47,547 nucleotides of DNA from positions 1 through 47,547 of the IMG/VR virus record IMGVR_UViG_3300043436_001758; one strand, 5' to 3'. Made by a program: the position numbers and the translations under genes. Below are positions 7,430 to 10,142 of this stretch, piece by piece. Numbering within the stretch: the first letter of the stretch is position 1; each line of letters begins with the position of its first letter. Below the pieces are notes generated by a model. It did no database searches. It was given only the letters and a program-made list of their open reading frames with translations, and was not told the origin of the DNA. The stretch is from a virus.

Positions 7430-7918
7430 ATGGCTTCAAAATTGGCAGTGGACAGAAAACAAGTAAGGGCTACATACGTCGCCACAGGCTCACTAATAGA
7501 AGCGGCCAAGGCTCACGGCCTAAAGCCAGCCACGGTCAGACAATGGGCAAAACGTGAAGAATGGGAGACTTCATCCAATGCGCTAAAGCTAGTCGCTAGG
7601 GCTGAAGAGATTCAAGAACTTAAAAGAGAAAAGAAACATCCTGATGCCGTTGCGGTATGTCACGCTGTGGATGCAATCAGTGATGTTTTTCAGAATCAAA
7701 AGGAAGGATTCAAGGCGAATATGTCACAGGCTATGTCAAGGGCTGGCGAGTATGTCGCAACACTTCCCGCTGATGCGATCCTTTCAGAGTCACGCAAGGT
7801 TAAAGATATCATGGACACAGCGGGTAAACTCTACGGCTTCGGGGAAGACGGGAGCAAGGCGGGATTATCGGTCAATATACTGAATCTCACGGCTGATTCA
7901 CTCCATAACATCAGATAA
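7430..7918 (+). CDS. Putative terminase small subunit (HTH DNA-binding)
   Basis: A 162-residue protein. The N-terminal helix-turn-helix is ATYVATGSLIEAAKAHGLKP followed by ATVRQWAKREEW (residues about 12-46). A helical central region and a short hydrophobic C-terminal tail (SVNILNLT) follow. This plan is typical of phage small terminase subunits and related packaging-site binders. It is far from the large subunit (43199) even around the circle (about 10 kb), which is unusual, so a transcriptional regulator remains possible. AAAGG lies about nine bases before the start. Confidence 0.6.
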   Translation: MASKLAVDRKQVRATYVATGSLIEAAKAHGLKPATVRQWAKREEWETSSNALKLVARAEEIQELKREKKHPDAVAVCHAVDAISDVFQNQKEGFKANMSQAMSRAGEYVATLPADAILSESRKVKDIMDTAGKLYGFGEDGSKAGLSVNILNLTADSLHNIR

Positions 7919-7951
7919 CAGTCATAGTGAATAGTTATAATATCGCGACGT

Positions 7952-8179
7952 TTACAGAGTAGGAAAAGACTTATCGCGATTCCCGTAGTTCATTTGACGA
8001 TTTAACGTAGGAAAGCGGCACGTTAAATAGGGCCACGCGACCAGTGGCGAGAATATAAAATAAGGATTCTTTTTTTCTGTAGGGCCGTTGACGCGCACCC
8101 CCTTCGACCCTCTAAATTTCGCGGCCACTCTCTCACGAATATCCCCATACAATTTTTCACCATTTTCCCAAAGTGACAT
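7952..8179 (-). CDS. Doubtful small ORF, 75 aa
   Basis: A 75-residue leftward frame (MSLWENGEKLYGDIRERVAA...) whose start overlaps the stop of the upstream leftward ORF (TAATG at 8179). This supports coupling, but the C-terminal half is not obviously protein-like and contains a 9-bp perfect inverted repeat (8000-8028). It may be non-coding. Confidence 0.3.
   Translation of the reverse strand: MSLWENGEKLYGDIRERVAAKFRGSKGVRVNGPTEKKNPYFIFSPLVAWPYLTCRFPTLNRQMNYGNRDKSFPTL
8000..8028. repeat. 9-bp perfect inverted repeat
   Basis: ATTTAACGT (8000-8008) is the exact complement of ACGTTAAAT (8020-8028), with 11 bases between. It lies in the doubtful ORF 7952-8179 and could be a protein-binding site or an RNA hairpin. 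Confidence 0.5.
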
Positions 8180-8418
8180 TATCTTTTCTTTTTCGTCTTT
8201 GATTGGTCGTTCCAGTGGACTTTCCCGTAGATTGTTTTTTCCGCTACTGATTGTGGTAGTGATTGGACGAATATTTTGAGTCGGAGTCCGTATTCTGGAG
8301 TGAGGAATTTTACTAGGTGGGAGAATTCTTCTCCTTGTGAGGCTAGTTTGGTAGCTTCTTGGAAGGAGTGGAGAGTTAGTTGGTCGTGTTGGTTATACAT
8401 GAGAAGTTTAGATTTCAT
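8179..8418 (-). CDS. Small hypothetical protein, 79 aa
   Basis: A 79-residue leftward frame with reasonable composition: SFQEATKLASQGEEFSHLVK, LTPEYGLRLKIFVQSLP and a basic tail KTKKKR. No ribosome site is visible. If a leftward transcript starts at the promoter near 9320, this would be its first protein gene after the structured RNA. Function unknown. Confidence 0.4.
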   Translation of the reverse strand: MKSKLLMYNQHDQLTLHSFQEATKLASQGEEFSHLVKFLTPEYGLRLKIFVQSLPQSVAEKTIYGKVHWNDQSKTKKKR

Positions 8419-8447
8419 TCTAATTTTTGGGTGATATGTTTAGGTTT

Positions 8448-8456
8448 TGGTATAAT
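8448..8456 (+). promoter_or_regulatory. Extended -10 promoter
   Basis: TGGTATAAT at 8448-8456 is a perfect extended -10 element (TG-N-TATAAT). TTGGGT at 8427 is a weak -35 at 18 bases. The predicted start near 8463 lies just before the structured RNA domain that begins at 8511, and no protein gene follows on this strand until 9450. Confidence 0.6.
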
Positions 8457-8851
8457 TTGTACATGATTGGAGTGATATGTCGATGAAGTTGATTTATTTG
8501 AACGTGATTTGGTAGGTTGCGCACTAGCTTTAGCTTGTTCTGCACCTGCGGTGGGCATAAGAAGCCCTAGGTAGAAATAGAGCTTCTGCATCCCCTCGGC
8601 TTCAAGTATGACCTATGGAGCCTTGTCTGCTGGGTGGACTGGGATGAGATGGAAGGCGGGACTTCCTCAAATTAAGAACAGGCGGCTATTCCTGTTCTCT
8701 TGACCTTCACCTGTGATTCGACACGATCTCGATTCTCAGAGGCTACACCAACCTATGCATCTTGTGCAGTGGTTGGGAGGAAGGTAGGTGGATGTTGTGG
8801 ATGTGTCAAGCACCAGTTTGATTATATTGGAGGGATTTCAAGCGCACGGGA

Positions 8852-8896
8852 TAAACTCCCTAAACTCCCTAAACTCCCTAAACTCCCTAAACTCCC
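8852..8896. repeat. Five tandem copies of a 9-bp unit
   Basis: TAAACTCCC is repeated five times without change. It lies between the 5' strands of two nested helices of the candidate RNA, so it would sit in a single-stranded side. Each unit carries ACTCC, complementary to GGAGT at 9035-9039. The exact identity of copies suggests recent expansion by slippage. Confidence 0.9.
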
Positions 8897-9090
8897 TAAT
8901 TTGGCTATAACCTATTTCGTGGCATCACGAAAATGGTCGGGGGAGGATCAGGTCGCTAGGATTTCGGAACGAGGCATGAAGCCTTCTTCGTCCGTGTTCC
9001 CCCCTCATTGCCTCCCCCGATTATAATGCCCCTTGGAGTCCTTGCGGCGTGTCCTTGTGGCAGTGGTTCACCGAAGATCCCCACGAAAAT

Positions 9091-9166
9091 TGGAAGCAGA
9101 GGTTGGAATTGAACCAACTATCTCTCACGTTATGAGCGTGGTGACTTGCCGTTTGTCCTCTCTGCT
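9091..9166 (-). tRNA. tRNA with CAT anticodon (Met or Ile2), CCA encoded
   Basis: On the minus strand a 76-nt cloverleaf runs from 9166 to 9091. The acceptor stem is AGCAGAG/CTCTGCT. The D-stem is GAC/GTC with GG in the loop. The anticodon loop CTCATAA gives CAT. The T-arm is GTTGG/CCAAC with loop TTCAATT, and an encoded CCA ends it. Oddities are A rather than T at position 8, a C-A mismatch at the top of the anticodon stem and a 3-bp D-stem, so it may be divergent or partly decayed. It lies inside the candidate structured RNA region. A minus promoter near 9320 could transcribe it. Confidence 0.75.
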
Positions 9167-9275
9167 TTGAAATTTTTCTGGCTACTCTTTTCGAGCAGAA
9201 TTCGTGCGCCAGAGGCACTAGTGGTTAGGCCACCCCGACCATCCAACCTACCCTTTCAGGTGAACCTTACTCGGC

Positions 9276-9294
9276 AAAGCCCGTGGGCTTTTGT
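9276..9294 (+). terminator. Short rho-independent terminator
   Basis: AAAGCCC and GGGCTTT form a 6-7-bp stem with a very small loop, followed by a T run (CTTTTGTC). It lies 24 bases after the last helix of the candidate RNA and before the promoter of the virion genes. Confidence 0.6.
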
Positions 9295-9319
9295 CAATCA
9301 GATGGAACCTTTGAATTGA

Positions 9320-9348
9320 GTTATCGAGCATTCCTCGGCAACTGGCAA
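9320..9348 (-). promoter_or_regulatory. Possible leftward promoter for the tRNA(CAT)
   Basis: On the minus strand TTGCCA (9348-9343) and GATAAC (9325-9320) are separated by 17 bases. Five of six and four of six positions match consensus. Transcription would start near 9313 and run through the tRNA(CAT) and the structured region toward 8418. Confidence 0.4.
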
Positions 9349-9366
9349 GCTTTAATTTTCACATGG

Positions 9367-9394
9367 TTGTATTTTTAACACATTTGTTTATAAT
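9367..9394 (+). promoter_or_regulatory. Possible promoter for the virion gene block
   Basis: TATAAT at 9389-9394 is a perfect -10, with TTGTAT at 9367-9372 (three of six) 16 bases upstream. It precedes the first gene (9450) of a long rightward run of structural genes. Confidence 0.5.
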
Positions 9395-9449
9395 TGGCAG
9401 TCGCCATATGTGGAATATCTTTACAAAATATTTCAAATAATGCAATAAG

Positions 9450-10142
9450 ATGTGCATGGGGTGCGACATCTTTTATAGATCATATAGGAAGGATTTTGAG
9501 TGGCTTGGGTATTCTTTGAAGTCGCTAAACAAGTTTGCAAGCGGGTTTAATCGGGTGCATATTGCGGTTCCTGCTGAAGACTTGGCTCATGTGCCTTCCG
9601 TGCATGGGGAGAGCTTGCATATTGTTCACGATAATTGTGAGGGGTATATGGCCCAACAGATTACCAAGCTCCACGCTGATGAGTTTTGTGAGTCTGATTA
9701 TGTGGCGCATCTGGATTCTGACTGCATTGTGGAAAGGAAGCTATATGCTGGGGGCCTGTTTATTGGCGGGAAGCCTGTTTATTTGCGCGAGGATGGCACG
9801 GATTCGCCTTGGATTGACATTGCCGCAGTCACGTTGGGGTGGAGGGATTCAAACGAGTATATGAGGCGTTTGCCGATTGTGTACCCGAAGTGGATCTATG
9901 CTGAGTTTCGGGAATGGATTCAAAAAAAGCACGGGATGACGCTGGATAACTGGGTGGCTATTCAACCAGAGAGAAGGTTTAGCGAGTTTCAGAGCTTGGG
10001 CCAATGGGCTTATGAGTATCACAGGGATGCGTTTCATTGGATGCACCCATCTGAATTTCCTGCTTATGTGAGTCAGTTTTGGAGTTGGGGAGGCATCACG
10101 CCAGAAATTAAAGAGAAGATTGACAACATCCTTGCTAGTTAA
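9450..10142 (+). CDS. Glycosyltransferase-like protein (GT-A, DUF6492-like)
   Basis: A 230-residue protein. It begins with a beta strand (CDIFYRSYRKDFEWLGYSLK) typical of GT-A enzymes. The metal/sugar-nucleotide motif DSD sits in YVAHLDSDCIV (residues about 85-95), followed by a Trp-rich acceptor region (PKWIYAEFREWI; AYVSQFWSWGGI). It resembles DUF6492-type phage glycosyltransferases. It heads the virion gene block, so it may glycosylate a capsid or tail protein; transfer to DNA or host surface sugars is also possible. A second ATG two codons later is an alternative start. Confidence 0.7.
   Translation: MCMGCDIFYRSYRKDFEWLGYSLKSLNKFASGFNRVHIAVPAEDLAHVPSVHGESLHIVHDNCEGYMAQQITKLHADEFCESDYVAHLDSDCIVERKLYAGGLFIGGKPVYLREDGTDSPWIDIAAVTLGWRDSNEYMRRLPIVYPKWIYAEFREWIQKKHGMTLDNWVAIQPERRFSEFQSLGQWAYEYHRDAFHWMHPSEFPAYVSQFWSWGGITPEIKEKIDNILAS

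Follow-up and report, generated by a model that had tools for sequence, protein, structure and literature searches.

A modular, covarying RNA family on the minus strand beside phage tRNA genes, and its possible role as a decoy

The window analysed here, a 47,547-nucleotide stretch of viral DNA (IMG/VR record IMGVR_UViG_3300043436_001758), carries on its minus strand a tRNA-Met gene (anticodon CAU; 9091-9166) which ends in CCA and is followed immediately on its 3′ side by a structured core RNA of 157 nt (8931-9087, minus strand). This core, designated ABC, consists of hairpins A and B and a terminator-like module C, and is matched by our covariance model R1 (see below) with 154 bits, the window being one of the model's own seeds. 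Hairpin A (9061-9085, minus; CGNGGGGAUCUUCGGUGAACCNCUG) presents a conserved GGAUCUUCGGUGAA loop on a covarying stem, and hairpin B (9027-9062, minus), closed by UGCC/GGCA in the window, exists in the family as six interchangeable alleles. Module C (8937-9020, minus) reads UCGGGGGAGG-CA-N-UGAGG(variable hairpin)AGCGACCUGA-N′-CCUCCCCCGA, that is, a long stem interrupted by a conserved CA bulge of two nucleotides, an N-N′ pair, a conserved AGCGA stretch and, on top, a variable apical hairpin (8958-9002, minus), which in the window belongs to the same allele group as in L056, L068 and L071. The module is followed by a U-rich, terminator-like tail (8929-8936, minus; CCAUUUUC); at least four U residues within the 8 nt after the stem were found in 43/51 distinct C modules, which have the G+C-rich stem and U-run of an intrinsic terminator.

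Upstream of the tRNA lie two further structured modules. Module V (59 nt; 9178-9236, minus) is common to L052, L066, L077, L095 and L102, and its GGUGG/CCAC pairing becomes GGCGG/CCGC in L095. Module X (75 nt; 9238-9312, minus) has a 10-bp closing stem, CCAUCUGAUU/GGUUGGAUGG, which is kept in eight distinct versions, and inner hairpins; an 8-bp long-range pair between GGUUCACC in module X and GGUGAACC in hairpin A is possible within the window. The locus begins with element Z (9314-9349, minus), a promoter-like TTGCCA-17-GATAAC sequence with a dyad (hairpin); relatives also carry this putative promoter, 5′ of tRNA-Trp, X or W.

Several other features were noted around the locus. Just past the terminator-like tail, a palindrome-like sequence, TTTCGTGRCGYCACGAAA (8915-8932), is shared with L012, L019 and L039. 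A 9-bp direct repeat, CTCCCTAAA (TTTAGGGAG on the minus strand), occurs five times at 8862-8906. L002 has three copies at the same place, L048 and L053 have comparable arrays 5′ of the RNA, and different short arrays (AACGGCTAGAG, AGTACCGACCC) lie nearby in other relatives; possibly these are iterons or recombination sites. A minus-strand ORF of 79 aa (8179-8418), probably a real gene, is conserved in L002 and L006; L016, L019 and L025 have a same-strand homologue immediately ahead of their tRNA cluster. Immediately on the 3′ side of module C, tRNA-like sequences, mostly missed by ARAGORN or called with an undefined anticodon, are present in L016, L024, L026, L035 and L043, and are perhaps degenerate or unusual tRNAs.

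In order to find relatives, IMG/VR was searched with a gapped pattern derived from the 10-bp stem 8937-8946/9011-9020, which retrieved 13 contigs, 12 of them sharing much more sequence, on the minus strand. Further patterns, from the core and the upstream hairpin, retrieved 19, 50 and 47 stretches; sequences obtained in this way match in the pattern columns by construction. R1, built from 26 sequences (alignment A1), finds the RNA in 46/49 contigs including the window, with one copy each in nearly all, and in 25 additional contigs at E-values of 4e-7 or better, which are rough owing to a short calibration. Pattern scans and covariance model together give a family of at least 71 viral contigs. 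A BLAST search of the region against phages and plasmids returned no real relative, its low E-values falling on the tRNA. The only pattern match in genomes of bacterial and archaeal species, L038 (Microvirga), was judged to be due to chance, as it scored 18 bits, had no matching flanks and lay in a region of long open frames.

The RNA is found mostly beside tRNA genes, and many members have no adjacent tRNA. The large terminases of the carriers range from 80% down to 26% identity to that of the window, or were not found; in L009, whose terminase is 26% identical, the RNA can nevertheless be aligned to that of the window over 244 nt at 76%, an indication that it is under selection and is exchanged horizontally. 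The nearest relatives, L002 and L003, carry other DNA in place of the RNA at the site occupied in the window, with 96% and 86% DNA identity to the window on the two flanks, and it is therefore dispensable in these phages. At this site L002 (3200-4300) and L006 (7740-8840) have a conserved leader of ~350 nt, which may be a structured RNA in its own right, together with an ORF of 76 aa and an HNH-like protein of 160 aa.

Covariation across the family supports the structure. In A1, 98.5% of 672 cells are paired, compared with 33-57% in slid structures, 73 cells are double changes, and both sides vary in 10 pairs. Shuffled alignments score 0.128 for covariation, whereas A1 scores 0.348, a value reached in 0/500 of them. 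One pair of hairpin A occurs as GC in 11 sequences, UA in 10 and CG in five, without exceptions. Because A1 was mostly fetched via the hairpin A pattern, retrieval bias is largely absent from the pairs of module C. Here the N-N′ pair is found in all four Watson-Crick forms among 51 distinct modules (UA 24, AU 22, CG 2, GC 2, and a single UU), with compensatory changes at several positions of the outer stem as well. The sequence-only reading of this DNA had left the strand unsettled; G-U occurs in 81 cells of the consensus pairs and A-C in none, which places the RNA on the minus strand of the window. Folding energy, taken from the single sequence, is unremarkable. That these sequences form an RNA family encoded on this strand seems to us close to certain.

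The same reading had proposed a single, intricately folded RNA of ~0.83 kb at 8463-9295. A structured non-coding RNA is indeed present there, but neither the proposed extent nor the single fold held: the supported RNA measures 157 nt, or ~380 nt when the 5′ modules and the embedded tRNA are included. All sequence strings on which the fold was based are found in the window, and three of its helices join exact complements (8511-8519/9244-9252, 8520-8524/9204-9208 and 8937-8946/9011-9020). Only the last covaries across relatives and is the sole long-range helix to survive; the predicted hairpin at 8965-8994 survives with it, lying inside it as part of the apical hairpin of module C and representing one of at least 15 interchangeable forms. 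The other long-range helices on the list lack such support from relatives. The outer 9-bp helix, 8511-8519/9244-9252, is contradicted by the local pairing of module X, since its 3′ arm lies within this module and is locally paired in 8/8 distinct X sequences; the downstream partner CAACCTACC is absent from the other X-bearing members examined. The helix 8520-8524/9204-9208, despite exact complementarity, has no support from relatives, nor has 8839-8848/9048-9057, whose arms are complementary but with 2/10 mismatches, or 8903-8910/9021-9030, whose arms are unequal (8 versus 10 nt). Perfect helices of at least 9 bp are in modest excess (three, compared with 1.3 ± 0.9 in dinucleotide shuffles), and the folding z-scores of the whole stretch are -1.8 for the plus and -2.3 for the minus strand.

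The transcription signals assigned to the long RNA fared similarly. A terminator scan found none just after the region, where one had been claimed, and the hairpin in question (AAAGCCC/GGGCUUU) forms one of the helices of module X on the minus strand. The extended -10 sequence at ~8448 on the plus strand exists, but has no link to the conserved RNA; it lies within a stretch common to the window and its nearest relative. It precedes a tiny plus-strand ORF, MSMKLIYLNVIW (8478-8516); the counterpart in L002, MSMKWYFVTMFFGYGVVSSMFG, is hydrophobic and 22 aa long, and has promoter and start in common with it. The minus-strand tRNA-Met adjoins the core, so that the RNA does lie next to a tRNA; this gene had been overlooked inside the claimed region, where its presence settles part of the claimed fold and hints at the strand.

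We compared the locus with known RNA families. Only tRNA reaches its Rfam cut-off in the window, and a permissive scan of 7800-9900 gave just tRNA and chance matches, with no large-RNA family among them. Specifically, cmscan found no match to GOLLD or ROOL in 7800-9900 at E-values up to 10, or in 23 related loci at E-values of 0.5-1. 6S RNA, tmRNA, 5S rRNA, RNase P and group I/II introns were likewise unsupported by any Rfam match. As no Rfam family matches, the RNA is by model neither GOLLD nor ROOL, and of the two options offered by the sequence-only reading, a member of these families or a new class, the latter fits better. GOLLD RNAs occur in tRNA islands and have a conserved 3′ and a variable 5′ part, sometimes with a tRNA inside (PMC12286853). 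The RNA described here shares with them its phage-borne nature, the tRNA niche (a tRNA-Met directly upstream in the window, tRNA clusters in most relatives), the conserved 3′ and variable 5′ parts and the embedded tRNA. However, GOLLD measures ~800 nt and its conserved 3′ domain forms a homo-oligomeric cage, whereas the unit seen here is 157 nt long and a mosaic of short exchangeable hairpins. ROOL (PMC12286853) is also a phage RNA found near tRNA islands, but its model is unmatched and its size and architecture differ. The nearest analogues in size and place are rnaC (139 nt) and rnaD (119 nt) of phage T4, the stable RNAs also called species 1 and 2, with which the T4 tRNA cluster ends on its 3′ side and which share the strand of the tRNAs; R1 gave no match to T4 69800-73200 at E-values up to 1, and hence no detectable homology to either. 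A full-text literature search, covering few subscription papers, found no description of the family. The family, absent from Rfam 15, appears to be a new addition to the phage RNAs of tRNA clusters.

The family is built from exchangeable parts. Module C is the common 3′ part, often accompanied by hairpins A and B, and is preceded by structured 5′ modules which can be exchanged. Its apical hairpins fall into 15 allele groups, single alleles being paired with up to three different B alleles, and modules X, V, Y, W and U recombine among phages. The order Z-X-V-tRNA-Met-ABC is common to the window, L066 and L077, while L052 has X-V-ABC, without the tRNA, L007 and L047 have X-ABC, and further modules (W, U, Y or a different tail) are present in L068 and L042; the tRNA thus counts as an insertable module as well. 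The additional structured 5′ modules (W, U, Y and a short tail; L068 2185-2400, L045 7703-7782, L042 6301-6351) gave no Rfam match in these three contigs and are candidate new small RNA motifs. In L086 and L092, where module C stands alone, a promoter-like TTGACA-17-TAGGAT sequence ends 5 nt upstream of it; in L057 the distance, measured to hairpin A, is 7 nt.

One 5′ module could be assigned to a known motif. The abiF RNA motif (RF03085) was found on the same strand, directly 5′ of the RNA, in six contigs, which include the near-copies L053/L060 and L083/L100. Three of the matches exceed the RF03085 cut-off of 37 bits, namely those in L053 and L060 (40.9 bits, ~6 nt before the RNA) and in L100 (43.8 bits, 8 nt), and three fall below it, in L083 (32.4 bits, 8 nt), L089 (32.5 bits, 21 nt) and L086 (27.9 bits, ~56 nt). 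Two further matches are probably spurious, one in L090 falling on the terminator hairpin 3′ of the RNA and the other, in G014, lying on the opposite strand ~450 nt away. The HEPN-type toxin AbiF is subject to neutralisation in trans, through an RNA that bears abiF motifs and ends in a terminator (PMC12373285). The likeness to such RNAs consists in the 5′ module of these six contigs, after which the RNA ends in a terminator-like helix, as in RCd22 (PMC12373285). No Abi_2 protein was found in the 32 contigs searched, which included L053, L083 and L089, with L060, L086 and L100 outside the set. The window itself differs from abiF RNA in that the motif is absent (RF03085 gives no match in the window contig at E-values up to 5, and no other known antitoxin RNA was found in the window); nor is there any relation between the motif and modules A, B, C, X or V.

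An orphan antitoxin motif carried by a phage RNA is most simply explained as a decoy. There is precedent in phage PhiTE, which evades such systems by RNA mimics of the antitoxin (PMC3475682); its pseudo-ToxI mimics a host RNA antitoxin and evolves by recombination, but differs from the RNA described here in consisting of tandem ToxI repeats directed at a type III ToxIN target (PMC3475682), a relation which we tested via Rfam only. Because modules A, B, C, X and V matched no known host RNA, the decoy idea rests on one module in six contigs.

Other functions have to be weighed against this one. The RNA could be a specialised intrinsic terminator and 3′-end stabiliser of the phage tRNA operon and nothing more, ending transcription and protecting or shaping the 3′ end of the tRNA precursor. 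The many members that sit a few nt past a tRNA CCA and the strong stem and U-run of 43/51 modules would fit such a role, but many other members lack an adjacent tRNA, and the promoter-like sequence 5 nt before module C in L086 and L092 would leave nothing else to be transcribed. Moreover, the conserved GGAUCUUCGGUGAA loop, the CANUGAGG/AGCGACCUGAN′ core and the swapped hairpins are unneeded for termination, and the single copy per genome in nearly all contigs is that of a gene rather than of a repeated terminator. We consider this explanation unlikely. A trans-acting stable RNA resembling T4 rnaC/rnaD, whose host target has nothing to do with defence, for instance a regulatory RNA or a sponge for an RNA-binding protein, is in our judgement neither better nor worse placed; it would agree with the similar size and place of the T4 RNAs, whereas R1 finds nothing in the T4 cluster and the abiF module would be left unexplained. 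Less probable still is a GOLLD/ROOL-like self-assembling scaffold with a tRNA between a conserved 3′ and a variable 5′ domain, an arrangement which the niche and the layout recall (PMC12286853), but to which the unmatched Rfam models and a core of 157 nt, reducible to module C alone, are ill suited. Finally, despite the stretches of complementarity, a single RNA spanning 8463-9295 is hardly credible, given that nothing related to its left half (8463-8840) was found in the contigs examined, that its long-range helices are unconserved and the outer one clashes with module X, and that helix counts are near chance.

We therefore return to the decoy. Our preferred statement, which we offer tentatively and with slightly less than even confidence as a whole, is that the phage encodes a structured minus-strand RNA, made as its own transcript or derived from a tRNA transcript, which acts in trans as a decoy. 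Its transcription would start at a sigma-70-type promoter of its own, or it would be the 3′ trailer on a tRNA transcript and be freed by tRNA processing, as might happen in the window after tRNA-Met; it would then accumulate as a stable small RNA of ~85-160 nt, or longer when 5′ modules remain. Less surely than these steps, it may act in trans by binding protein, most likely as a decoy or antitoxin mimic against RNA-controlled defence toxins of the host, with each swapped hairpin suited to a different target and C/A serving as a common scaffold for stabilisation or binding. That the RNA is transcribed, processed out of the tRNA precursor, stable, bound to protein and active in counter-defence is in each case inferred, and the decoy mechanism taken by itself is the more doubtful part. 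Its extension to the other modules, including those of the window, would follow by analogy with abiF. The boldest form, which we regard as rather unlikely, is a modular counter-defence cassette in which exchangeable imitations of the RNA antitoxins or other defence RNAs of the host (abiF for some phages; X, V, W, U, Y and the A/B/C hairpins for others) would be carried on a common self-terminating 3′ domain and swapped according to the defences of the host; simple recombination at conserved flanks would be another source of such swapping.

The RNA adds a strongly covarying, mostly single-copy member to the group formed by GOLLD, ROOL and T4 rnaC/D, the functions of which are poorly understood. 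An antitoxin motif without its toxin in some members gives rise to a concrete and testable idea, namely that RNAs of tRNA islands may be instruments of RNA-based counter-defence. If this were true, the swapped hairpins would constitute a readable list of the RNA ligands of defence proteins.
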